A stretch of DNA of 61,246 bases from positions 1 through 61,246 of the forward strand of contig JAKSYS010000363.1 in the NCBI GenBank assembly GCA_022925895.1, in the 5' to 3' direction. Within the stretch, counting starts at the first letter, position 1, and each line of letters opens with the position of its first letter. The notes below the pieces were generated by a model. That model saw nothing but the letters and a program-made list of their open reading frames with translations. It ran no database searches and was not told the origin of the DNA. The position numbers were made by a program, and so were the translations under genes. The DNA is from Fragilaria crotonensis (Eukaryota; Bacillariophyta; Fragilariophyceae; Fragilariales; Fragilariaceae). This document shows, in pieces, positions 10,655-45,767 of this stretch.

Positions 10655-13600
10655 TTCGAGATCTTGAAAGTGTAAGGGGGGATGAATATGATGATTCCTC
10701 TCCGATCGTCTACAGAAATCAACCGCTAAACATGTCAACTCCACGTATTCCAATATCCAGACTTCTGCTTGTGCCAAAGGCTAGACCAGGCAGAAAATGC
10801 AGAGATACGCCCTTAGATCCATATCCGACCAAGTACTACGGTGACGCCATTATACAGAAAAACAGCTCATCAACAAGAATTTTCTTCCACAACGTGAAAG
10901 GACTAACCTATTCTACTGCAGGAGAAGATTACCGCTACTACTTATCATGCCTTCAAGCATACGATATAGATATAGCAGGTCTCTCAGAAACAAACACGTG
11001 TTGGTCTCACCAACATCTGGCGGCGGAGTTCCGTGCAACTGTGCGACGCTATTATCCGCAGAACAAAGTCACGTTCGGTTGTGTTTCACCACTGATAGAC
11101 AAATGTCTCGAACGAGAGTCTTATCAGTCGGGCGGAAATCTCACACTAATAACGGAGCCCTCGTAGCTCAGGCTACCGCATCAAAGGTTTCAGACGATCC
11201 CAAGGGCTCGGCAGATGGAACAGCGTGACTCTGGAAGGAAAAAGCGACTCGAGAATTTCTATTATTACGGCATATCGATCATGCCCAGGATCTATAAAAA
11301 CGTCTCCAATCGGAAGCGTTTTTTCTAGAGAGTACACATATCTCAAAGATCAAGGTCATTCATCTTTAAATCCCCGCACAGTCTTTCTTGCAGATCTCCA
11401 TGAATTTATAAGGCCAATGCAAGAACAAGGAAACGCCATTATCCTTATGATGGACGCCAACGCAACAATTGAGAGTGACCAGAGGTTAGCATCCTTCATT
11501 CAATCATGTTCTCTACATGATCTTCACGCAAACGATCCAGCCACATCTACATACATTGGTGCAGCAGCGAGGCGCATCGATTATATCTTCGGATGTCAGA
11601 AGATTCGAGAGGTTATGTCACGCTCGGGAACTTTATCGTACTCAGAAGGCCCTCAATCCGATCACCGCGGCTTATACGTCGATCTCGAGTTAGGTTCTTA
11701 TCTTCAAAGTACAAAGATGAAGATATCTCAACCAACACATCGTTCGCTCCAGACTGGGAATCCCGAGCTGGTATCATCTTATCATTCGAGTATGCTCCAA
11801 TACTATTCGCAACATAACATGGAAAAACGCATTGATGATCTGTTCGATAATCATCAATCTCTGTCGAGAGAGGAAGTACGTAGGATTCTGACATCTTGGG
11901 ACAATGACCAAGGACGAGCTATGCTACATTCAGAACGCCTGCTAAGACGTCCTCCAAAAAAGTACCAATGGTCTCCCACACTACGGAATGCAGCAATTGT
12001 ATGTCGTTATTGGAAGTTGAGGCTTAGAGAAAGTTTGAACGGGGAAGATTACCAATGTACGTTTGCAAGGTGGCAAGCTCAAGTTCAAGTACACGATCCG
12101 GAGTTTATCCTTCCCCATTTAGGGGAAGTCCTACCAATAGCACGCATCCGGGAACGATTCAACCAAGCTACTCGGTTCTTTCGTAAGTGTCAACGCTCCT
12201 CGACAGATCTTCGTTTGAAAACATACCAGGATTTGCTGGACTCATACGAGGAAGACACTAATCCAAATACACAAAGTGAATCAAAAAGGAAGGCAAAGAT
12301 AGTTCAGAAAACTATTTCAGGCGAGATATGCAAAACCACCTTTCGGAACATTGGTCAAGTTGTCAAACCGTCAACATACGCCAGTATATCAAAATTACTC
12401 ATTCCTCGTCGACGAGCTGACGCAAACACGCCATTGCAATCAACGGAAATCTACTCCTTTCTACAGACAACGGATCAGTCCGACTTACTATGGGAAACAA
12501 TCTTGGACAGATCGGAAATCGAAAAACATCTTCTCGATTATAACAGGGAATCTTTTCGTGCGGCAGCGGAATCACCATGTGGACACGGAGTCGTACATGA
12601 CGCCATAACTTTTTCGAGTCTATCGCACGAAGCCTCTGAGCTCCTATCAGGAACAGTACCATCCGAATGGCATGGAGACGATGATATTCTTCGCGAGTTC
12701 CTCGCATCTTTCACGATCCCACCAACGGTAAAAGATCACGGTGACATATTGACTGAAGTCTCAGAAGCTGATATCTGCCGAGGTTTTAAAACATGGTCGG
12801 AAACAACTTCAACGTCTCCTTCTGGCCGTCATTTAGGACATTATAAAGCCCTCGTTCAAGAACCTACCTTGCTTCGATGTTTCAGTAGATTCATTAATAT
12901 TGCGATCTCAAGAGGGATTGCAATACCAAGATGGTGCAACGCAACAAATGTCCTAATCGAGAAGGATCCCGGCTACCCTCGGATTAACCGACTTCGAATC
13001 ATTCACCTTTTTGAAGCAGATTTCAATTTCTACCTAAAACTTCAATGGGGTCACAGGTTGGTTCGACAAGCATGCGATTTAGACCTTCTCCATTCTGGGC
13101 AACATGGATCAGTCCCCCGCCGAACATCGTTGGATCCCATAATGCTTACACAGCTAACAACGGACTTGTGTCGCATTCTCAAACATGACTTCGCTCGATT
13201 TGACAACGACGCTTCATCATGCTACGACAGAATTATCGTGGCACTGGGGATGCTTGCAGCAAGACGCTGCGGAATGCCTACTAATGCTATTCGTCTTCAT
13301 GCAGATGCTTTACAATTTATGAAGTACACTGTAAAGACCATACACGGCATATCAGAGGAAAATTACCATGGCACAGCATATGCTCCGCTATTTGGAACAG
13401 GACAAGGAAGTGGAGCATCACCTTCCGTATGGTTGACTTTGGTGGTCATAATGCTCAATACATTGGATCGCATAGTACCGGATCGTATAAACTTCGTGCC
13501 AGTCCAAGGAAAAGAAATCATTCAAGGCTAGTTGACGCTTTCGTAGACGACACATCACTGGGCTTTACATCAGCGGGGAACATGGACTATGATCAACTCA

Positions 13601-16359
13601 TTCAACGCCTTCAAGACATCGCGCAGACGTGGAGCATATTCTATTTCTCTCGGGCGGAAAACTGAATCTTTCAAAATGTTCGTGGTATGTCCTCTCTTGG
13701 GAGTGGAAAAGTGGCAGACCAACTCTTCGACCAATCACCCCGCAAGACAAAAGATACATCTCAAACAAGGTGACCAAACGCAAGAACTCGAGATAAGACG
13801 AACTGCTCTAACTGAATCAACAAGGATGCTGGGCGTGTATATCAACCCATTGGGTGATTTCTCCGATCATCTAGAGAACTTACGGAAAAAAGCACATACA
13901 TACGCATCACGTCTTATGTCGCCTCGTCTCACGGCAGCTCAAATACGCATTTTCCATAGGTCCATATACATACCATCAATGCGCTACAGTTTACCAGTCC
14001 TGGCAGTGGATGAAGAAGAACTTGCAACAGTACAATCACGAGTGGTACAGGTAATGTTACAACGAATGCATGTTAGTAGCACGATACCGACTTCGATCCG
14101 TCACGGACCGCTTGAACTCGGCGGACTCGGGATATACGATCTTAGGACAGAAGCAGGATTGGAGGCATTGAAATTTTTCGAAATGCGATTTACGCAGATT
14201 CGGAAGTGGGAAATCTGCTTGAATTAACCTGCAATACTCCCAACTGGAATCGGGCATCGGAGAACCAATATTAACACATCCGAACATATGTCTGCCATAC
14301 CTCACGCCGTCATGGATATTGTCTCTTCGACAATACCTATCATGCCACAACATGACAGTGACTATCACCGACTCCTACACCGTACCTCTTCAGAGTGGCC
14401 TCGATCAGTACATTATGCAACGTGAACACCTTCAACGATACACGCCGAGGCAGCAACGCGACTTAAATTTGGTAAGATTGTATTTACAAGTCACAACATT
14501 ATCGGAGATGTCAGATCCGGAACGTCAGCAAGCAATCCATCTGGATTACCTTGACGCAAAACGGCCCGTCAATTGGATAAGTGATCCTCGATGGCCTCGA
14601 CAACCAAACATATCGGCGTCACAACGTCGCTTATGGAAAAGATATATCACGTCTGTTTTTCTTCGCTACATTCCCTACTGGAAGGTCTCACCTTCACATC
14701 ATCAAGACAAAGTATCGGACCATCGGCAACTCAAGATTCTATACCTACGTCTTTCGCGTCGCTCCAAGAGTACCTACGTACGTTACCAAGGACTCAACGT
14801 CGATTAATTTCGGACTGGACGCAACACGCATCAGACCTGCAAGTATGGAGAGCCATGCGATCTCGAGAAAAACTACACTTGGCAACCGATGGAGGACTAC
14901 TTGGATCATCAAGTACTCACGGTTGGGTTTTAGCTACAAGCAAACTCGTTCTTTTTACTGGAGCAGGCCCAGTTGATGGTCCTTTTGATTTAGCATCATC
15001 AACTAGGAGTGAACTCGGCGGGCTAGCAGCATCTCTCGTGTTCATCGTGGCCATCTCTCGACATTGGGGACTGCGCCATAATGCATCATTCAAATGGTAC
15101 GCTGACAGCAAGGCAGCAATTTCGAGGGTTAACAAATTTGCTCGTTCACAAAAACACGCCACAAGAATGCCATATGATGCAGACCTTTTTATCTCTTATA
15201 CGAAGCCTGCTCAAAGAACTTCGACGTCCATTCAAACCGCTATGGGTGAAAGGTCATCAGGATAAAACACGGTCATACGACACCCTACCCCGTTCAGTAC
15301 GAATGAATATCGACGCTGACGTTCTGGCCACGCAATATCGCACTCACGGGCGTTTTCAATCATCACAGTCTGTGGATCATCAGCAGTGCCAACAAGTCTC
15401 CTTCACCATTAACGGTCGACGTATAAACAGTCACTTTGACGAAAGTATAAGGTACCATATTAATGGATACCACTTGAGACGATACTTACAGCATAAGAAC
15501 TCTTGGAGTGACGAAACCTGGAATGAAATTGACCTCGCTACGTTTGGAAAATCTTTTTGTCGATTAAGCCCAACAAAGCAGGTCCGACAAACAAAATTTG
15601 TACACGGCTATCTCCCGATCGGAACGAGAAGGTACAAGCAGGCTCGGATAAAGGATGAGAAACTGAAAGTGTGTCCGTGTTGCAAACTTCCACGAGGAAA
15701 CGGAAACGCATCTTCTCAGGTGTTCAAAAAATCCAGCTCAAGCATCGAGTTTACGTGAACTAGCTCGCTGTATTCACGGAGGAGATACTCACGCGGTGAA
15801 GTACTTGATCTCTGGGGCAATCCGACACTGGTCGACACAGGATGATCCGTATAACCCTGACATATCCGAATATCCGTCACATCTGCATTCATTAATAACT
15901 TCCGCACTTGATTCACAAGCAAAGATTGGTTGGGAACAGATGATGAAGGGTTTTCTAAGCACGACGTGGCGAACGCTCGCATCAAAGGATATGTTTGCTG
16001 AAAAGCCGACAAATGATGATCGACAAGGAGAATCTACGATTAAGACAACAATGAAAGGATTAGCAGAGCATTTTTCACGGCTTTGGGAGGCACGCAACAA
16101 AGTCCTACACGATACAAAGGATGAGGAAATGCGCGATGTCAGATCGATGGAAATCGCAGAAATCAAGTATTACTTCAGTCGACCTCATTTGCTTCGTTTC
16201 GACGATCGACACTATTGTGAAGGTTCTTTGGCAAAACTGTTGAATGGACGATCATCTAATAGACGCAGGTGGTTACGACGAGTGAAGACATCAATTGAGA
16301 TTCAGAAGGTACAAGGATCGCGACAAACACGAATCACTTCATTTTTCAGTCCCACATGA
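10639..16359 (+). CDS. LINE ORF2: APE endonuclease, reverse transcriptase, RNase H
   Basis: APE/EEP endonuclease: FFHNVKGL, the metal-binding Glu in LSETN (about 10986), GGNLTLI, DANA (about 11454), IDYIFG and SDHRG (about 11660). Reverse transcriptase: the block SPSGRHLGHYK (about 12820), motif A FDNDASSCYDRI (about 13200), motif B GQGSGASPS (about 13403) and catalytic motif C FVDDTS (about 13541), with FVDD instead of the common YxDD. A thumb region follows (RMLGVYINP, then LGGLGIYDLRTE). RNase H: Asp in ATDGG (about 14884), Glu in RSELGG (about 15004), Asp in YADSKA (about 15099) and KGHQD (about 15249). The protein ends with QTRITSFF, which fits a PIP box. Frameshifts lie near 11155, 13530, 14230, 14600, 15250 and 15760. 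If read through, the protein is about 1,900 residues, long for a LINE ORF2. Confidence 0.8.
16324..16347 (+). other. PIP-box-like motif at the C-terminus of LINE ORF2
   Basis: The last residues before the stop at 16357 include Q-T-R-I-T-S-F-F, an exact match to the PCNA-interaction consensus Q-x-x-(I/L/M)-x-x-(F/Y)-(F/Y), four residues from the end and preceded by a basic stretch. A terminal location is typical of functional PIP boxes. That it binds PCNA is inference. Confidence 0.55.
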
Positions 16360-20808: not shown

Positions 20809-21886
20809 GCATGAAGGTACGGCAGCAAGCTCATCGATGGGAGATTTCAGGAACCGGATCCTCAAGGAGTGCTTATGGATGCATCCATCCATCATGTAGG
20901 TAATGTGATATGTGATAAACGCAAAGGCATACTAGTATTCATTTTCGACAAAGTGATCTTCTCTTCAGTGCATTTGCGCTAGTGTGTGTGTTAATATGGG
21001 ATCAATATGGTACTAGTCGGGGATATTGTTAGTACTACCGGTAGTACGAGTTTCTGTGCATACAGCAGAGATTGACGATGCATTTCTACATTGCTAGGAG
21101 TAATATCGTAACTGGGAGTGGCGTTTCTGCATAGCCTCAGCACATGAAATCGTCATCGGCATTTACCAGGAATAATGCGGTACACGCAGGTGGGAGAGGG
21201 TGCATAGTGGTACATGATTTCGCTATCCGGACTGCTATGATATCACCTGCGTTCTCCGAAGACAACAGCTCCGGTGACTTGAAAGGAGGGCTCATTGTTA
21301 ACAGGCAAAGAAGAGAATAATGTCCTGGCAGTCTTTCATGAAAGCCATTGAGCCGATGAGCAAGTGAGCCCGTGAGCCCGGGTGAGCCCGGGTGAGCCCG
21401 GGTGAGCCCGGGTGAGCCTGAGCCGTGACGTATGTCGGCCGTACAAGTACTGGCGAAGTATGAATAAGCACGCACACGATGAGACAAGGCAGCGTGAGCA
21501 TGTCCCAAGTCCCACGATGTGTGCAGTGTGCATTGTGCATGGTTCAAACTTGGACGGTTTGCTACTTACTACGTGTACGTGGTATTCATACATACCTGGT
21601 ATGTACTACAACTGACTTGTGTATGAAATACGTCGTGGGAGCCCTACAGCTATATGTTTACACGAGTTTTTGTATCTAACGGTAGTATCTACCGGTGTAA
21701 CGGTAGACCAGGATCCGATATAGGACATATAGTGCTTTCATGTCCCTCCCCTTGCTGCACCAACACCCTCACGGAGTGGATGTAGGAACTGAGCTATCGT
21801 CATCAAAACCCGATGCCATGCATTCGGAGCTATATAGGCGCATTCTCACCTTTGATGCTTTCGGTAGTGTCTGGTGAGCGGTTGAC
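20809..21886. other. Intergenic region upstream of the lipoyltransferase gene
   Basis: No gene-like frame. It holds the perfect palindrome GTACTACCGGTAGTAC (21032-21047), which recurs at 53365-53380, and a short GC-rich tandem repeat (21364-21420). Confidence 0.45.
21364..21420. repeat. Tandem repeat, 10-bp unit GGTGAGCCCG
   Basis: About five near-perfect copies of GGTGAGCCCG, preceded by one shortened copy. The unit contains CCCGGGTGAGC junctions that are much more GC-rich than the flanks. It is a plausible minisatellite with copy-number polymorphism. Confidence 0.8.
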
Positions 21887-22948
21887 ATGTTCATGATGCG
21901 CCAAGCAGCTGCCGCTCGCCATTCGAATACTGCTATTGCAGTCTGGAGACCTTCCCAACGATTCTTGAGTACTAGTATCGAGCATGAATTCGGTGAGGAA
22001 CCTATAAGCAAAACGACACAATCTACCACCGTCCATTCCTCTCTCTCCTACGGTCCGATTGACTATGCTCGGGGCTGGGCATGGCAGCAAACACTGTTGC
22101 ATCAGCGACTCTTGCGTCGTGCAAAACTACTTCAACAGCCACAAGAAAGCGTTGATGATGATCTACAGGACGACACAATACTTTTGTTCGAACACCTGCC
22201 TGTCTATACGTTGGGACGTGGTGCCGATGAATCTCACATAACAGTCGAAATTCCGGACCGTGATCGTCTTTCACGGACCTGTCGGCGACAGCGGGGCTCA
22301 GGGTCGGCGCGACTATCCATGGACAAGAGTCCGTTGTCCTCGACGACCATGACGACTGCCGACTCGGTCCAACATCTGTCGGAGATGGCAACGCCCGTTA
22401 TAGCACCAAATGGAGTACCAATCTATCGCATTGATCGAGGTGGTGAAGTAACATTCCATGGTCCTGGACAATTAGTCGTTTATCCCTTGCTAGATCTGAA
22501 ACGCTGTCCCATGCAGCAGGATCTACATTGGTATCTACGTCAAATCGAACAAGTGATCATCGATACACTGCACGACTATGACATTCCAACCACACGCGAT
22601 TCTGACCATACCGGAGTTTGGTATCAATCGCCAAACCACAGGAACAACAAGGGTGACAATGGTCGTTTTGCCAAGGTTGCTGCCGTGGGAGTGTCGGCAT
22701 CAAGATGGATCACCACGCACGGCTTTGCACTCAATGTTCGACCAACATTGCAGTATTTCGATGCATCCTACATTGTTCCCTGCGGAATCCATGACAAAGA
22801 TGTGACAAGTATGGAACAAATCTGGAGAGAAGAAGGTAGGGAAACCGAACTTCCGACAGTCGACCAAGTGGCCGCGAGTGTCTTGAACAAAATGGAATCT
22901 GTTTTTGGAATAACGGTAGAGAAGAATGCAATCATTAAAATACATTAG
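21887..22948 (+). CDS. LIPT2: Lipoyl(octanoyl) transferase, LipB/LIPT2 family
   Basis: 353 residues, intact. It transfers octanoate from acyl-carrier protein to a lysine of lipoyl domains, the first step of lipoic acid assembly for pyruvate dehydrogenase, 2-oxoglutarate dehydrogenase and glycine cleavage H protein. Family signatures: LPVYTLGRG, RGGEVTFHGPGQLVVYPL (from R184), KVAAVGVSASRW with the catalytic lysine K263, THGFALNV, and IVPCGI with the catalytic cysteine C299. The first 30-40 residues (MRQAAAARHSNTAIAVWR...) are basic, hydroxylated and acid-free, like a mitochondrial presequence. A Ser/Arg-rich insertion of about 55 residues (roughly 118-175) separates the first two motifs, which are close together in bacterial LipB; it looks like a low-complexity loop rather than an unspliced intron, since the frame stays open and no clear splice sites are present. 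Confidence 0.93.
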   Translation: MFMMRQAAAARHSNTAIAVWRPSQRFLSTSIEHEFGEEPISKTTQSTTVHSSLSYGPIDYARGWAWQQTLLHQRLLRRAKLLQQPQESVDDDLQDDTILLFEHLPVYTLGRGADESHITVEIPDRDRLSRTCRRQRGSGSARLSMDKSPLSSTTMTTADSVQHLSEMATPVIAPNGVPIYRIDRGGEVTFHGPGQLVVYPLLDLKRCPMQQDLHWYLRQIEQVIIDTLHDYDIPTTRDSDHTGVWYQSPNHRNNKGDNGRFAKVAAVGVSASRWITTHGFALNVRPTLQYFDASYIVPCGIHDKDVTSMEQIWREEGRETELPTVDQVAASVLNKMESVFGITVEKNAIIKIH

Positions 22949-37314: not shown

Positions 37315-40300
37315 ATGACTGTACGTTACATTCAAGGCAAGACGAAGGGCCCTGGTGGCTCATATCCGTCAAAGCAATCGAAGCATGGTTCCGACGTGGA
37401 ATCGCATACCGAGTTTTCTGTTCTCGCAGCCGACGACGCTGCGAGCATTGTGTCGCAGCTAGAGAATCCGAGATCCTTTTTACGTGGTGGAACGGATGAT
37501 GATAAAATCAAGTTGGTCGAAGAACTCTTTCACAAGGGAGCAGCGATTGGAGTCGGTGTCTGGGTCATTTTGATGATTATGGTGTACTTGTTCTCTCCTT
37601 ATGAGCTTTACGAGGAGCCTTCAGGATTCGAGCAGCTCTGCCATATTGTTGGAGGCACTCTTCTGATCGTCTCGAATGGTGCCAGACTTCTTCCCTTGCT
37701 CATGAAAGATAAGGGCTACAAGATTCTGAAGAGTGGCTTCATTGTTGGGTCATTAGCTGTGCAGTTGGTGGCGTTGGCATCTAACTACATCATGGCCTTC
37801 AGACCAACACCAGTTATGTACGATGAAATTAGTGGGCTACGCTTTCATCTCGTTCGATGGGCAGAGTGGATTCCCCTGGCCTTCTCATGGCCTTTCTCAC
37901 CATTAACGTCGACGCACCTTTCCGAGGGCCCACTAAGGTTGACTTTGTATTCCCTACCATGATGGCACTGAGTACCTCCGCCGGATTGCTCTTCCCACTT
38001 TGCCCCGATGAATACACATGGTGGGGTGTCATGGGCACCTCTTGGTCATTGTTCAGTATGATCTACGTTGTAACCTATCAGAAGGGTGTTGACTACTTGG
38101 AATTGAAGGGTGAAATCAAGGCCGGCGCCTCCAGGTCCAAAGCAAATGCTCAACAGGCTGAGCGGCTTGATCTTACCAAGTCCAGTTTCTCGTTGTGCAT
38201 TGCCATTAGTGTCACCTGGACTTTCCTTGCTCTCATGTTCACCTTTTTCAGTGTTGTGACCAAGCTTGCCAGGAAGGATAGTTGGCTCAGCAACCCATCT
38301 ATCCCAGTGGCCTTGACCTGCACCTTCGAAGTTATGTCCAAGGTATGGTACCTTGGGGCCCTGTTTGAAGCATACGGCAAGGTCTTTGACGAACAGGTCA
38401 GGGGTCATCGCCGACTTGAGGAATTGCGAAGCTTCATGTCCGCGGTGTGGGCATCATCCTCTGACGTGATCGTGTTCTGCTCGAAGAACAACGATATCGT
38501 CAGCGCTCGGATCAGTCCATCGTTTCTCAAAATCCTTGGAAGTTCAGCCGACACTCTAGGCTTTGACATCACAAACGAAGTCTCACTTGTCCTTGAGATC
38601 GATCAAAGTCAGGATTTGTTCTCCGTTGTCGCCATGGATCTTGATAGACCGGTGATGAGAAGTGATCTTTCTAGTGTGTCCTATGACTTGAATACCAGAT
38701 CGTTCAGGATCTCCAAGGCGGATGATCTTAGTGCTCCTGAAGTTAACCTTGCACGCATGGCGAAGCTTGCGATTGACGCTGTCACTCTAGCGCCGGCGTT
38801 ACTAGAAAGGATTAATCCAACTAAGTTCGTCGCTGAAGTCGGCAGGAAAGGAGATCTCTCGAGCGAGATGTCTTGCGAGGTTAACATTTCGCTATTGGAA
38901 GGAAGGTCATGCGTCTTGACTCTGCGTGATATCTCCGAGCGTCTTCATCGCTTCCAAATTGAGAAGAAGCTTGTCAAGGAAGTCACCTCCAGAAAGAAGG
39001 ACGAGGAAGCCAACAGATTCACTCGCCATGAGGTGAAGAATGCTCTCTTGGCTGCGATGGGGATTCTGGACCACCTGAAGGAGTTGATGCAGCGCAGTAA
39101 TGTGTTACCAAAGAGAAACACGGACGAAAAGAGTATGTTTCTCCTTTCTGACAATGCCCCTATGGTATTCATGGACATGGGCGGCGACGACGACACCACG
39201 TCTCCTCAGACTAAAGAAGTGGAAGAAGCTTTCAACGAGCTCGATACTACTCTCAAGGATGTTATGGACACAATTTTGGACGAAGCAATGGCGCGCGAGG
39301 TAAGAACTGTTACCGGCGATGATCGATTGACTATTCTCGATCCTTTCTCTAACTTTCCTTGTTTTCCTCTAGATTATTTACGGCGATTACACACCGCGCA
39401 AGGAGCGCATGAATGTTCCTGATGTCCTCGACTCTCTCCGCCGACGCGCCTCTCGCAGATTTCCGATGGATATCGTGCCTGCCGGTCCTCTTTTCCCCGT
39501 CCTTGAAATGGATCGTCAGTTGCTACGATACATTTACCGAAATGCCGTATCGAATGCTTGCAAGTATGGAAAGAAGGATGGCGTTGTCAGTACTCGCGTT
39601 ACGTACGAACGGAATTTGCAGGTCCTGACGATGCAAGTCATCAACCTGCCAGGTGTAGGTCACGATAAGCTTTGCCAGCTCTCAGCCTCAGAGGCAGCGA
39701 AAGTGTTTGAGCAGGATACTCAGCTGAAGGCTACGCAAGAGGGCACCGGAAGAGAGGCCGAATCGATTCGCAATGAATCATCTGGAAACGGTGCCTGGAT
39801 CATGAAGAAGGTGCGCTTGCTTGTTTTGTTGTTGTTGTACTTTTGTTTTCGCCCCCTTTGGTGACGCTAACAATTTTGCTTCGACAGTGCGCCGAATCAA
39901 TGAATGGAAAAGTTGATATCAAATTCGAGAAGACGAGAACTGTTTTTACTTTCTCGTGTGCTGTCACCCCAGTTTACATGCCAGAACGAAGCATGAGGAT
40001 CTCAACCCCAAGTGTATCCAACGAGGAGTTCGCCATCCCAGAAGGTACTTGGGGTGTTGTGATTGACGACTCGAGGATCCAGCGTAAAGTGTTGGGAACG
40101 TTCATGCAGTTGATTGGTATTGACAAGTCAAGGCAAGTGGGTTGAACTCCTCGAACGTTTGTGTAGCTGCCTCTACTAATACTTTCTTTCCATTTCACGC
40201 AGACAAGTTATCCTTGGGGCCACGATGGAAGAGATTCACGGCTTTGGCGATGCTGTTCAAAAGCTTTTGAGGCAAAATCCTCGTGACAAGTTCCTGTTAA

Positions 40301-40872
40301 TCGTGGATGAGAATCTGGATATTGTCGATGGCGGAACTCGTCACGAAACGGTATCCGGTTCTATAGCGACACAGAACCTTTTGTCTCAACTCGACAATAA
40401 CACCAAATCGCGTGTGTTGGCATTGATTCGCAGTGCAAACGATTCGGACATGGACATTCAAGTGTATAGAAAGAGAGCCCACGGGCATTTGCGCAAGGAG
40501 CCTCTCAAAAAGACTGGCAATCTTGAGCTAATCAAGCCTTGGTGGATCGAGCGGTTTGCCTCCAACCATGACCAGGACATGGACGATTCCAGTGGAAACA
40601 ACACACTTGATTTTGCTGTCGCGGATGATGTTCGCGAGTCACTAGGAGTGATCAACGCGTTGTCGGCAGTGGCGAGTGAGGCTCGATGGCAGGCAATTCG
40701 CGAGAAACTGCATGCTCTCAAGGGTGACTTGAAAGCAACGATTCCTATGGGAATCATTGGGAAGGTCGTAACCCAGATCGATCAACTCATGGCGAGTGAT
40801 AGGCTACCACGAGATTTCAGCAACAAATGGATCCGACTTCAGGGTGAAATAGAGACAATTCTCGCTACCTAG
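37315..40872 (+). CDS. Rhodopsin-type hybrid histidine kinase 1 (7/8TM-PAS-HisKA-HATPase-REC-HPt)
   Basis: About 1,112 residues over four exons, with one apparent missing base near 37884 (CCTTC-TCATGG; copy 2 has CCTTCCTCATGG). The membrane domain (about residues 80-355) has roughly eight helices. Helix C carries R181-W-A-E-W, helix E has EYTWW, and helix G has EVMSK with K343. The Arg-to-WW spacing of 55 residues equals R82-W137 of bacteriorhodopsin; K343 and E339 match K216 and D212. These are microbial rhodopsin features, with Glu as candidate counterion as in channelrhodopsins. Next come a PAS-like domain (about 370-540), HisKA with H572 (RHEVKNALLAAMG), HATPase (N719/N723; G2 box GNGAWI), a receiver (VIDDS; D925 in IVDENLD; Ser in LIRSAN) and HPt (LHALKGD, H1060). 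This is a complete one-polypeptide phosphorelay, likely light-gated. The HATPase G1 box is NLPGVG rather than DxGxG. Confidence 0.8.
39300..39372 (+). other. Intron 1 of kinase 1 (73 bp, phase 0)
   Basis: Donor GAG|GTAAGA, acceptor TTTTCCTCTAG|ATT. The join gives ...AMARE|IIYGDY..., collinear with kinase 2 (intron 44158-44236). Confidence 0.9.
39811..39887 (+). other. Intron 2 of kinase 1 (77 bp, phase 0)
   Basis: Donor AAGAAG|GTGCGC, acceptor CTTCGACAG|TGC. The join gives ...WIMKK|CAESMNG..., within the HATPase G2 box; same site and phase as 44672-44748 in kinase 2. Confidence 0.9.
40133..40202 (+). other. Intron 3 of kinase 1 (70 bp, phase 2, GC-AG)
   Basis: The donor is TCAAG|GCAAGT and the acceptor CACGCAG|ACAAG. 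It splits an Arg codon (AG|A) to give DKSR|QVILGA. The paralogous intron at 45008-45101 uses the standard donor GCTAG|GTACGT at the same codon and phase, which supports a genuine GC-AG intron here. Confidence 0.8.
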
Positions 40873-42507: not shown

Positions 42508-45500
42508 ATGTCTTACAGTCAGCGATCGCAGAGCATGTCGAAGGTCCACAGATCCCCCCAAATGCCGAAGCGAGAATCTCACTCCAAGAATGAATCGGAG
42601 ACGACGAACCCGAGATACAAAGAGTTCACATTTATGGCCCCTGACGATGCTGCGAGTCTTGTCTCCCGTCTCGAGAATCCCCGTTCCTTTCTCAATGCAG
42701 CGGCCGATACTGACACTGCCCTCGCCTTCCTCATGGCCTTTCTCACCGTTAACGTCGATGCGTCATTCAAGGGTAACGGCTCCCAATCACCTAAGGTGAA
42801 CTTCATTTTCCCCTCCATGATGGCTCTGAGCACCTCCGCTGGAATGATATTCCCATTTTGCCCGAACGAATATCTATGGTGGACTGTCATGGCCATCTCG
42901 TGGTCTCTTTTCTTTACTATCTATGTTGTAACCTTCCAAAAGGTAGTCGACTACTTGGAGTTGAAAGGAGAACTCAAGGCCGGCAGCGCACAGGCCAAAG
43001 CGAACGCTCAGCAAGCCGAACGTCTTGAAATAACCAAGTCCAGCTTCAATTTATGCCTATCAATCAGCATATCCTGGACTATGTTGGCTCTCATCTTCAC
43101 ATTTCTCGGTGTCGTCACCAAGCTTGCCAGAAAGGATAGCTGGGTCAGTAATCCGCATCTCCTCGTCGCAGTGACGTGCGTCTTTGAAGTCATATCCAAG
43201 ATCTGGTACCTCGGCGCACTCTTTGAAGCCTACCGCAAGGTCTTTGACGAGCAGGTTAGGGGGCGCCGCAGGCTAGAGGAGCTTCGTAGCTTCATGTCGG
43301 CGGTGTGGCTGTCATCGTCAGATGTCATCGTTTTCTGCTCAAAGAACGGTGGTATTGTAAGCGCCAAGGTCAGCCCAGCCTTCATCAATACCCTCGGTGG
43401 TTCTGCTGAGGCCCTCGGCTTGGACGCTGATGATCCGGCATCATTGATGCTTGAGATCGACGCAAGTCAAGATATATTTTCTGTTAGTTGCATGGACCTC
43501 GATCAAGCTATCGTTCAAAGTGACATTTCCAGCGTTCACACCGAGAATCTCAACTTGAGGACTTACCGGATCTCCAAGGCAGAGGACATCAACGCCCCTG
43601 AAGTCAATCTCGCACGCATGGCGAAGCTTGCTCTTGACGCTGTTACTCTGGCTCCAACGTTGCTGGACAGTAGGATCAACCCCACCAAGTTCGTGGCTGA
43701 ATCGGGCAGGAAAGGGTTCGCTGCGACTGAAATGTCTTGCGAGGTTCACATTTCACTTTTGGAAAGCAGGTCTTGCGTCTTGACTTTGCGCGATATCTCC
43801 GAACGTCTTCATCGCTTCCAAGTGGAGAAGAAGCTCGTTGAGGAAGTTACTTCCAGAAAAAAGGATGAGGAAGCCAATCGATTCACTCGCCATGAGGTGA
43901 AGAATGCTCTCCTGGCTGCCATGGGAATCCTTGACCACTTGAGGGATCTGATGCAGCGCAGTAATGTGTTACCCAAGAGAAACACGGAGGGTTTGGTTGT
44001 CGTCTCCGAAACTGCTTCGATGTCATTCTTGGACATCGGTGGAGATGACGACAGTGTGTCTCCTCAGACCAAGGAAGTCGAAGCTACTTTCAACGAGCTT
44101 GACGCCACTCTTAAGGACGTTATGGACACTATTTTGGACGAAGCGATGGCTCGCGAGGTAAGTCATTTGATGTTTTGCATTCGGGATTGCGCCGCCCTCC
44201 AACGGGTATCTCAATAAACACTATCTGTTCCTACAGATTATTTATGGGCATTATACCCCAAGGAAGGAACGCATCAACGTCCCTGATGTTCTCGCCTCGC
44301 TTCGGAGAGGAGCATCGCGCAGATTTCCATTGGATGTGGTTCCTTCTGGTCCTTTGTTCCCTGTCCTTGACATGGATCGTCAATTGCTGCGGTACATCTA
44401 CCGAAATGCGATATCGAATGCCTGCAAGTTCGGTCGAAAAGATGGCGTTGTCAATACTCGTGTCAACTACGATAGTCACTTGCAACTGCTGACGATGCAA
44501 ATCATTAACTTACCTGGAGTTGGCCATGAGAAGCTCTGCAAGCTTTCTGCCGCTGAAGCGGAAAAGATCTTTGAAAAGAACACTAAACTCAAGGCCACGC
44601 AAGAAAGCGAAACGGATGGAGCCGCGTCCAATGATGACTCGACCGGCAATGGCGCGTGGATCATGAAGAAGGTACGAATGCGCTGCCTCGGGTTCACATC
44701 CTTATTTATCCGGTGTGACGATGACTTACAATTGTTTCTTTGTATCAGTGCGCGGAGGCCATGAACGGACGGCTGGATATCAAGTTTGAGAAGACGAAAC
44801 GGTATTTTCGTTCTCATGTGCATGTTCTCCAGTGTTTATGCCAGAACGGCAAACACTGCATCAACGGCCTGTCGGCTCCGTCAACATGTCAACCTCCGAA
44901 GAATTTGTCATTCCCGATGGCACGTGGGGCGTTGTGATTGACGACTCAAGAATCCAAAGGAAGGTTTTGGGCACATTCATGCAGCTTATTGGAATTGATA
45001 GAGCTAGGTACGTGCGGTGATCACTAATACATGTCTTCCTCATGTTTTGAAATGATGCGACTCATATGGTGTTTCATTCCCTCTGTTGCGAAAAACTACA
45101 GGCAAGTCGTCCTTGGAGCTTCGAAGGACGAGATTCACGGCTTTGGCAAGGAGGTTCAAAGGCTGCTGAAGGAAAATCCGAATGATAAATTCATTTTGAT
45201 CGTCGATGAGAATCTTGACATTGTGGATGGAGGAACTCGTCACGAAACGGTATCTGGTTCCATTTCGGTTCAAAACCTGCTGTCAGAACTTGACCAAAAT
45301 TCGAAGTCTCGTGTCTTGGCGTTGATTCGCAGTGCCAACGACTCGGACATGGACATTCAGGTGTACAAGAAGAGAGCTCATGGACATTTGCGAAAGGAAC
45401 CGCTCCAAAAGACTGGTAATCTCGAATTGATCAAGCCATGGTGGATCGAACGTTTTGGGGTGGAAGTCCCATGATGGATGATTCTAGTTTGAACAATTCG

Positions 45501-45767
45501 TTGGAATTCGGAGTGGCCGATGACGTTCGGGAATCGCTTAGCGTTATCAGCGCCCTCGCCGTCGTGGCGAGCGATGCTCGTTGGCAGGCCATTCGTGAGA
45601 AATTGCACGGCCTCAAGGGCGATTTAAAGGCAACTATGCCAATGGCCACTGTGGGCTCGATCGTTGCCGAGCTGGATCGACTCATGGGCCAAGAAAAGGT
45701 ACCTCGGGATTTCAGCAACAAGTGGCTCCGTCTCGAAAGTGAGATAGAGTGCATTCTTGCCGTGTGA
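42508..45767 (+). CDS. Rhodopsin-type hybrid histidine kinase 2 (N-terminal helices deleted)
   Basis: Tandem paralogue of kinase 1, about 1,003 residues in four exons at matching sites. From the ATG at 42508 the cytosolic N-terminus matches (PDDAASLVSRLENPRSFL), then jumps through NAAADTDTALAFLMAFL directly into the end of helix C. Helices A to most of C, including RWAEW, are absent: about 400 bp of kinase 1 have no counterpart. Helices D-G remain, with EYLWW and EVISK (K231). PAS, HisKA (H462), HATPase, receiver (Asp codon at 45205) and HPt (LHGLKGD, His codon at 45606) are all conserved. Two one-base gaps occur, both at homopolymers: AAA near 44797 and TTTTGGGG near 45456-45463. Reading past them restores MPERQTLHQ...VIDDSRIQRK and the HPt domain. 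Without helices A-C retinal binding is doubtful; it may be a light-insensitive or heteromeric partner, or the deletion may be an assembly or annotation problem. Confidence 0.75.
44158..44236 (+). other. Intron 1 of kinase 2 (79 bp, phase 0)
   Basis: Donor GCGAG|GTAAGT, acceptor TTCCTACAG|ATT; same position as kinase 1 intron 1. The exon before it is exactly 550 codons from the ATG at 42508. Confidence 0.9.
44672..44748 (+). other. Intron 2 of kinase 2 (77 bp, phase 0)
   Basis: Donor AAGAAG|GTACGA, acceptor TTTGTATCAG|TGC; same position and length as kinase 1 intron 2. Confidence 0.9.
45008..45101 (+). other. Intron 3 of kinase 2 (94 bp, phase 2, GT-AG)
   Basis: Donor GCTAG|GTACGT, acceptor AAACTACAG|GCAAG, giving DRAR|QVVLGA. 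It is orthologous in position to the GC-AG intron of kinase 1. Confidence 0.9.

Follow-up and report, generated by a model that had tools for sequence, protein, structure and literature searches.

The enzymerhodopsin lineages given as examples in a 2025 review come from fungi, green algae, and choanoflagellates. In the histidine kinase rhodopsins (HKRs), including Chlamydomonas Cop5/HKR1 and Ostreococcus OtHKR, a rhodopsin, a histidine kinase, and a response-regulator domain share one chain (PMC7693036; 2025 review), with light inhibiting the kinase (2025 review). Rh-PDE from Salpingoeca rosetta (PDB 7cj3, 7d7q; residues E164, D292, and K296) carries Glu at the site of bacteriorhodopsin D85, and the paper describing it makes a case against a pump function (PMC7644710). 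Proton-pumping xanthorhodopsins are known in diatoms, FcR1 of Fragilariopsis being a plastid proton pump with a Schiff-base Lys, an acidic acceptor and donor, and no kinase (PMC10627834), and diatom histidine kinases have been tied to ethylene, cytokinin, and phytochrome types (2019 review, PMC6944256). A 2018 genome paper presents three Hyphochytrium rhodopsins as the first putative examples among stramenopiles (PMC5795050). The words 'diatom' and 'HPt' do not occur in the main text of a 2020 study of modular rhodopsins from green algae (PMC7693036), the excerpts of PMC6798134 and PMC8163842 do not mention a diatom rhodopsin kinase, and no description of a diatom rhodopsin-histidine kinase was found by title or abstract in the open-licence literature. 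Here, we describe gene A, located on a 61,246-nucleotide stretch of the diatom Fragilaria crotonensis (contig JAKSYS010000363.1, assembly GCA_022925895.1; hereafter the window), whose product is probably an enzymerhodopsin, namely a hybrid histidine kinase joined to a preceding type 1 (microbial) rhodopsin that has one additional helix at its start.

Gene A resembles Rh-PDE, the best fold and profile match of its membrane domain, in its eight predicted transmembrane (TM) helices, which include TM0 and would leave both termini in the cytosol, in the Arg-x-x-Glu-Trp motif of helix C, and in the acidic residue four positions before the candidate Schiff-base Lys. It differs from Rh-PDE in sequence (~15% identity) and in output, which in Rh-PDE is a phosphodiesterase and not PAS-kinase-receiver-HPt. 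Compared by description rather than by sequence, HKRs have the same combination of rhodopsin, histidine kinase, and response-regulator domain, although some end in a guanylyl cyclase where gene A ends in a putative HPt. ArcB-type hybrid kinases run from histidine kinase (HK) through receiver (REC) to HPt, an order that gene A would repeat on one chain; in contrast to them, its sensor consists of a rhodopsin and a PAS domain, and its putative REC and HPt are too divergent for Pfam. Like FcR1, the gene A product is a diatom rhodopsin, here with a candidate Schiff-base Lys, whereas its family has Leu, Met, or Phe at the donor site. New in gene A are its diatom origin, its degree of divergence, and the putative HPt at its end; the kind of photoreceptor is already known from the three lineages named above.

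Gene A and its membrane domain

Gene A runs on the + strand from an ATG at 37315 to a stop codon closing at 40872, as originally predicted. When the exons were joined, as the original prediction had proposed, three introns (39300-39372, 39811-39887, and 40133-40202) were removed and the downstream exons spliced in frame, leaving a single frame break within helix C. The third intron is of the GC-AG type; a tandem paralogue, gene B, has GT at the corresponding site. A second copy of gene A, regarded as its allele, lies on contig C384 of the same assembly, and a public protein of 674 residues, P0001, is 98% identical to gene A. K344, H573, D926, and H1061 below follow the numbering of the spliced allele/window reading, from which one is subtracted for the window copy. 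The features are as follows.

37315..40872, + strand: gene A, 8-TM rhodopsin-type domain, PAS, histidine kinase, receiver, and HPt (reading frame; homologues of the same domain order)
37315-39299, 39373-39810, 39888-40132, and 40203-40872, + strand: exons of gene A
37492..38384, + strand: membrane domain, TM0 and helices A-G, with the frame break inside near 37881-37890 (P0001 model and fold; coordinates hand-converted from the model)
37855..37869, + strand: RWAEW in helix C, equivalents of bacteriorhodopsin R82, D85, and W86 (alignment register and conservation)
38340..38342, + strand: codon of the candidate Schiff-base lysine, K343 in the window and K344 in the allele and P0001 (conservation in homologues)
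38466..38930 (approximate), + strand: PAS-like domain (strand pattern in the P0001 model; PAS-kinase fold matches of the P0010 model)
38934..39299 (approximate; runs on into exon 2), + strand: kinase dimerization helices, phospho-acceptor His at 39027-39029 (homologues and models)
39415..39959 (approximate; spans intron 2), + strand: ATP-binding domain (PF02518 at E 0.0012, WalK match, and fold)
40044..40557 (approximate; spans intron 3), + strand: receiver domain, phospho-Asp codon at 40306-40308 (12/12 homologues and model topology; profile support weak)
40609..40869 (approximate), + strand: HPt-like helical domain, His codon at 40711-40713 (10/12 homologues, model, and hhalign)

The AlphaFold2 model of P0001 contains the eight helices that had been predicted (residues 60-93, 104-130, 141-162, 179-197, 213-230, 234-248 with 250-273, 280-319, and 330-358), together with a beta hairpin (165-169/176-178) in the B-C loop. 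Model confidence (pLDDT) was at least 75 in 26 of the 30 ten-residue blocks between residues 61 and 360, with a minimum of 59. The candidate lysine falls within the last helix (330-358, helix G), where it had been expected. In structure searches, the membrane-domain model had the seven-helix rhodopsin fold and grouped with microbial rhodopsins rather than with another 7TM family, in agreement with the original assignment, and its nearest neighbor was the 8-TM enzymerhodopsin Rh-PDE, with which TM0 also aligned. Identity to rhodopsins of known structure was ~15%. Judging from the eight modeled helices, TM0 would be an extra first helix preceded by a cytosolic N-terminus; Lys and Arg in loops numbered 12 inside vs 6 outside, with helix limits set by hand. 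The end points of the structural alignments placed K344 on K205 of NpSRII (rows 3qap, 1h68, and 1jgj), 1-2 residues off in bacteriorhodopsin rows, and 2 off in 7cj3_A.

Profile searches of the PDB (177,635 sequences) pointed to the same relative. The sole matches at E<=10 of a profile built from 15 membrane domains of subfamily 1, to which gene A belongs, were two Rh-PDE chains (E 2.2 and 3.3), and the same chains were the sole matches of 17 subfamily-2 proteins, a profile with no row in common with the first (0.30 and 0.41). When 14 membrane domains from both subfamilies were combined, only Rh-PDE was retrieved, at E 0.0067 and 0.0095 (alignment A2 holds 15 of 29 proteins, A7 14 of 53). Against 17 prokaryotic rhodopsins, picked by motif, which favors rows with the R and K motifs, hhalign gave a score of 20.2 (probability 0.9%), compared with 12.0-16.1 for seven reversed or shuffled controls; two other row sets, run without controls, scored 22.3 and 18.5. 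Used as a single-sequence query of the PDB, the membrane domain returned one irrelevant match (E 1.3), Foldseek against viral models gave no match at E up to 0.001, and the global mode of hhalign shrank to 3-5 columns.

Residues of the retinal site were scored in 49 rows from the 53 proteins found. The four proteins left out were P0024 (a long insertion, although Glu and Lys are retained), P0034 (stops short of helix G), P0037 (the broken fragment from the window itself), and P0038 (frame lost ahead of helix G). R181 (48/48), W303 (49/49), and K344 (49/49) were invariant and E184 was nearly so (46/47), which bears out the predicted RWAEW in helix C and the conservation of a lysine at the end of EVMSK (residue 343 of the window copy, corresponding to 344 of P0001 and the allele). 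The site of bacteriorhodopsin D212 (E340) was E in 31, D in 17, and Q in one; that of W189 was F, W, or Y, save one L; and that of the proton donor D96 was L in 44/48, otherwise M or F. In a permissive full-length alignment, a setting that had no control, R82-D85-W86, W182, D212, and K216 stood opposite R181-E184-W185, W303, E340, and K344. The WW pair said to follow R181 by 55 residues does so in the window copy, whereas the spacing is 56 in the allele, with one extra loop residue; this pair lay opposite W237-W238 in one permissive alignment and out of register in the other. The rhodopsin fold and the lysine and counterion sites are supported by computation; that the protein would bind retinal we infer. 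Glu at the D85 site is shared with Rh-PDE, and a non-pumping sensor is the natural reading of these residues.

Kinase and putative receiver and HPt domains

Behind the putative rhodopsin lies an enzyme domain, as indicated by the spliced gene, HATPase_c in homologues, and the kinase fold. Pfam searches of the window protein, exon 3 excluded, recognized HATPase_c alone, at 19.7 bits and thereby short of the 26.4-bit cut-off, which was not reached by PAS, HisKA, receiver, or HPt either. HATPase_c was found in 14/29 homologues at E up to 1 (best E 1.1e-6), and no receiver or HPt family was among the Pfam families listed for the window protein and the 29 homologues (for the latter, 25 of 32 families). 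The full-length model of homologue P0010 matched WalK (E 2.5e-12), LOV-histidine kinases, and the hybrid kinase ShkA, supporting the PAS, DHp, and ATP domains. The predicted order of PAS, kinase, receiver, and HPt finds support in this full-length model, most weakly for REC and HPt.

Gene A has the DHp histidine, the receiver aspartate, and the HPt histidine. Alignment A3 shows the DHp His in 18 of 20 rows, P0026 carrying E and P0027 carrying R at this site, and the Asp pair, phospho-Asp, Ser, and Lys of the receiver are conserved in all 12 homologues that extend to it. In the homologue model, strands alternate with helices in the receiver, with a small strand insert past the Asp, and residues 1030-1113 of the HPt region form a set of helices. 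CheY ranked second among 11 weak matches in the receiver profile search (E 0.2), and the HPt hhalign score was 15.8 vs 11.0 and 9.9 for two controls, profile support that is weak. The hhalign reference sets kept 18 of 30 receiver loci and 15 of 30 HPt loci after a length and stop filter, and alignment A4 comprised gene A and 8 of the 12 homologues reaching the receiver. Stand-alone receiver or HPt chains did not occur among the 50 matches listed per fold search, which kinases and rhodopsins fill, and this is no evidence of absence. Computation supports the kinase fold, the conserved His and Asp, and, in most homologues, the HPt His; catalysis and relay of phosphate we infer.

In the mechanism we propose, retinal on K344 would absorb light and isomerize, and the change would be carried from helix G through the cytosolic helix 361-382 of the P0001 model to the PAS domain and the kinase helices. 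Because this helix links helix G to the PAS and kinase helices, the rhodopsin could change kinase activity. The kinase would phosphorylate H573, the phosphate would pass to D926 of the receiver and on to H1061 of the HPt, and the HPt would hand it to soluble response regulators.

Alternative readings

Several observations weigh against a working enzymerhodopsin. Among them are the receiver hhalign score of 19.1, which was not above that of its reversed control (19.7), and the low hhalign probabilities of the membrane domain against the prokaryotic rhodopsins (0.5-1.7%). Others are considered here with the explanation that each would favor. The first of these explanations, unlikely though deserving attention, is that the kinase half is a pseudokinase, the rhodopsin working while the ATP domain is inactive and the output is allosteric or phosphatase-like. 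Judged by eye, the 13 rows of alignment A1 that extend to the G1 box have N-x-P-G there; WalK has Asp, and the Asn in its place casts some doubt on catalysis. The weak recognition of HATPase_c points the same way, as does the HPt His, which is kept in only 10/12 homologues (V in P0017, Q in P0020). On the other hand, the DHp His, the N-box Asn, the first G2 glycine, and the receiver Asp and Lys are kept in 12/12 homologues reaching the receiver.

It is rather improbable that the sensor, though descended from a rhodopsin, has given up retinal and responds to another stimulus by way of these helices. Such a sensor would accommodate the strong divergence from rhodopsins of known structure, the changes in helix F, where P186 is lost in 49/49 homologues and the Y185 site is Leu in 46/49, and the failure of the canonical profile. 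PF01036 was unmatched genome-wide (62.1 Mb, 881 contigs), in a search whose 14 control genomes also gave 0 and which found matches in 7/7 genomes picked for holding a bacteriorhodopsin relative; it was also absent in 5 window segments, among the families listed for the 29 homologues (25 of 32), and in 17 further homologues. However, the lysine is invariant and the residue four before it is acidic in 48/49 homologues, with E/D swaps only, as would follow from a need to preserve a protonated Schiff base. The genome also contains nine carotenoid-oxygenase matches, some being exons or alleles of one gene; this enzyme class includes retinal-forming enzymes.

There is little to recommend the view that the window shows only a relic of gene A, a pseudogene that is decaying in this strain. 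Its copy in the window is frame-broken, the allele has three one-base breaks in its coding exons, and paralogue B is damaged on both contigs. In contrast, the two copies of gene A differ at only 15 mismatches in 3,562 aligned columns, and the allele is open across all eight helices, without the helix-C break, its own breaks lying elsewhere. Breaks that differ in position between near-identical copies are more suggestive of errors in the consensus than of decay. The membrane, PAS, and first kinase-helix regions are intact in P0001, which has no breaks over exon 1 and whose C-terminal end is, by eye, a read-through into intron 1. The exon-1 dN/dS of 0.12 for A vs B (466 codons) also argues against decay.

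That the receptor domain belongs to an unrelated seven-helix family and owes its likeness to rhodopsin to chance is very hard to credit: the lack of a Pfam rhodopsin match and the weak matches of full-length profiles to animal (type 2) opsins (E 0.27-0.4, and in another search 0.77-1.4 beside Rh-PDE at 1.1-1.2) would suit it, yet the fold searches bring up microbial rhodopsins, which is why the opsin matches were set aside, and include TM0, the E 0.0067 profile match is to Rh-PDE only, and Arg, Trp, and Lys are invariant at rhodopsin sites. Another 7TM kinase was set aside as the identity of the protein on this fold evidence.

Paralogue B, the wider family, and what the finding means

Gene B follows gene A in tandem.

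42508..45767 (about), + strand: gene B, tandem paralogue with the first helices missing and a frame break before HPt

In the window, gene B is missing its first helices as far as the middle of helix C; on C384, ~270 more bases are present, incomplete and out of frame (locus L008). Its frame breaks ahead of the HPt on both contigs, such that the protein would end ...WWIERFGVEVP. Gene B may therefore be without an HPt or in decay, even though constraint acts on its exon 1, dN/dS being 0.08 for B vs its own allele (466 codons). The public protein P0006 has a B-like first exon without the gap. Between the window and C384 (L007 and L008), gene A is near-identical and B differs at ~17% of synonymous sites; recent conversion and uneven haplotype divergence are candidate readings of this unevenness.

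Three queries found no family members in the genome beyond A and B on their two contigs, and one query found no separate member of the second subfamily. That subfamily (P0035, P0036, and P0039-P0053) is 25-30% identical to gene A, has Asp in place of Glu at the D212 site, and has a mostly conserved IVDVH stretch past the lysine. Two homologues in the family are labeled Nitzschia inconspicua (IV203_032926 and IV203_020514). The assembly also has 61 light-harvesting matches, one of which is nearest to Fcpb7 and FCPI-17, fucoxanthin chlorophyll proteins with structures from the diatom Chaetoceros; like the Nitzschia names, this makes a diatom source likely. Elsewhere in the window, long open frames at 11153-16359 appeared retroelement-like (endonuclease- and reverse-transcriptase-like) and an open frame at 21878-22948 resembled a lipoyl/octanoyl transferase, both judged by eye.

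Taken together, we lean toward the view that diatoms hold a whole unrecognized clade of 8-TM enzymerhodopsins, in two subfamilies missed by the standard profile, of which at least one is a single-chain, light-gated, four-step phosphorelay. A branch of microbial rhodopsins escapes the standard profile, so that current tallies of algal light sensors may be underestimates. For optogenetics, a kinase under light control with an HPt at its end would offer a new module. If retinal is bound, diatoms join the lineages with enzymerhodopsins and gain a candidate light sensor that uses retinal and feeds into two-component signaling.
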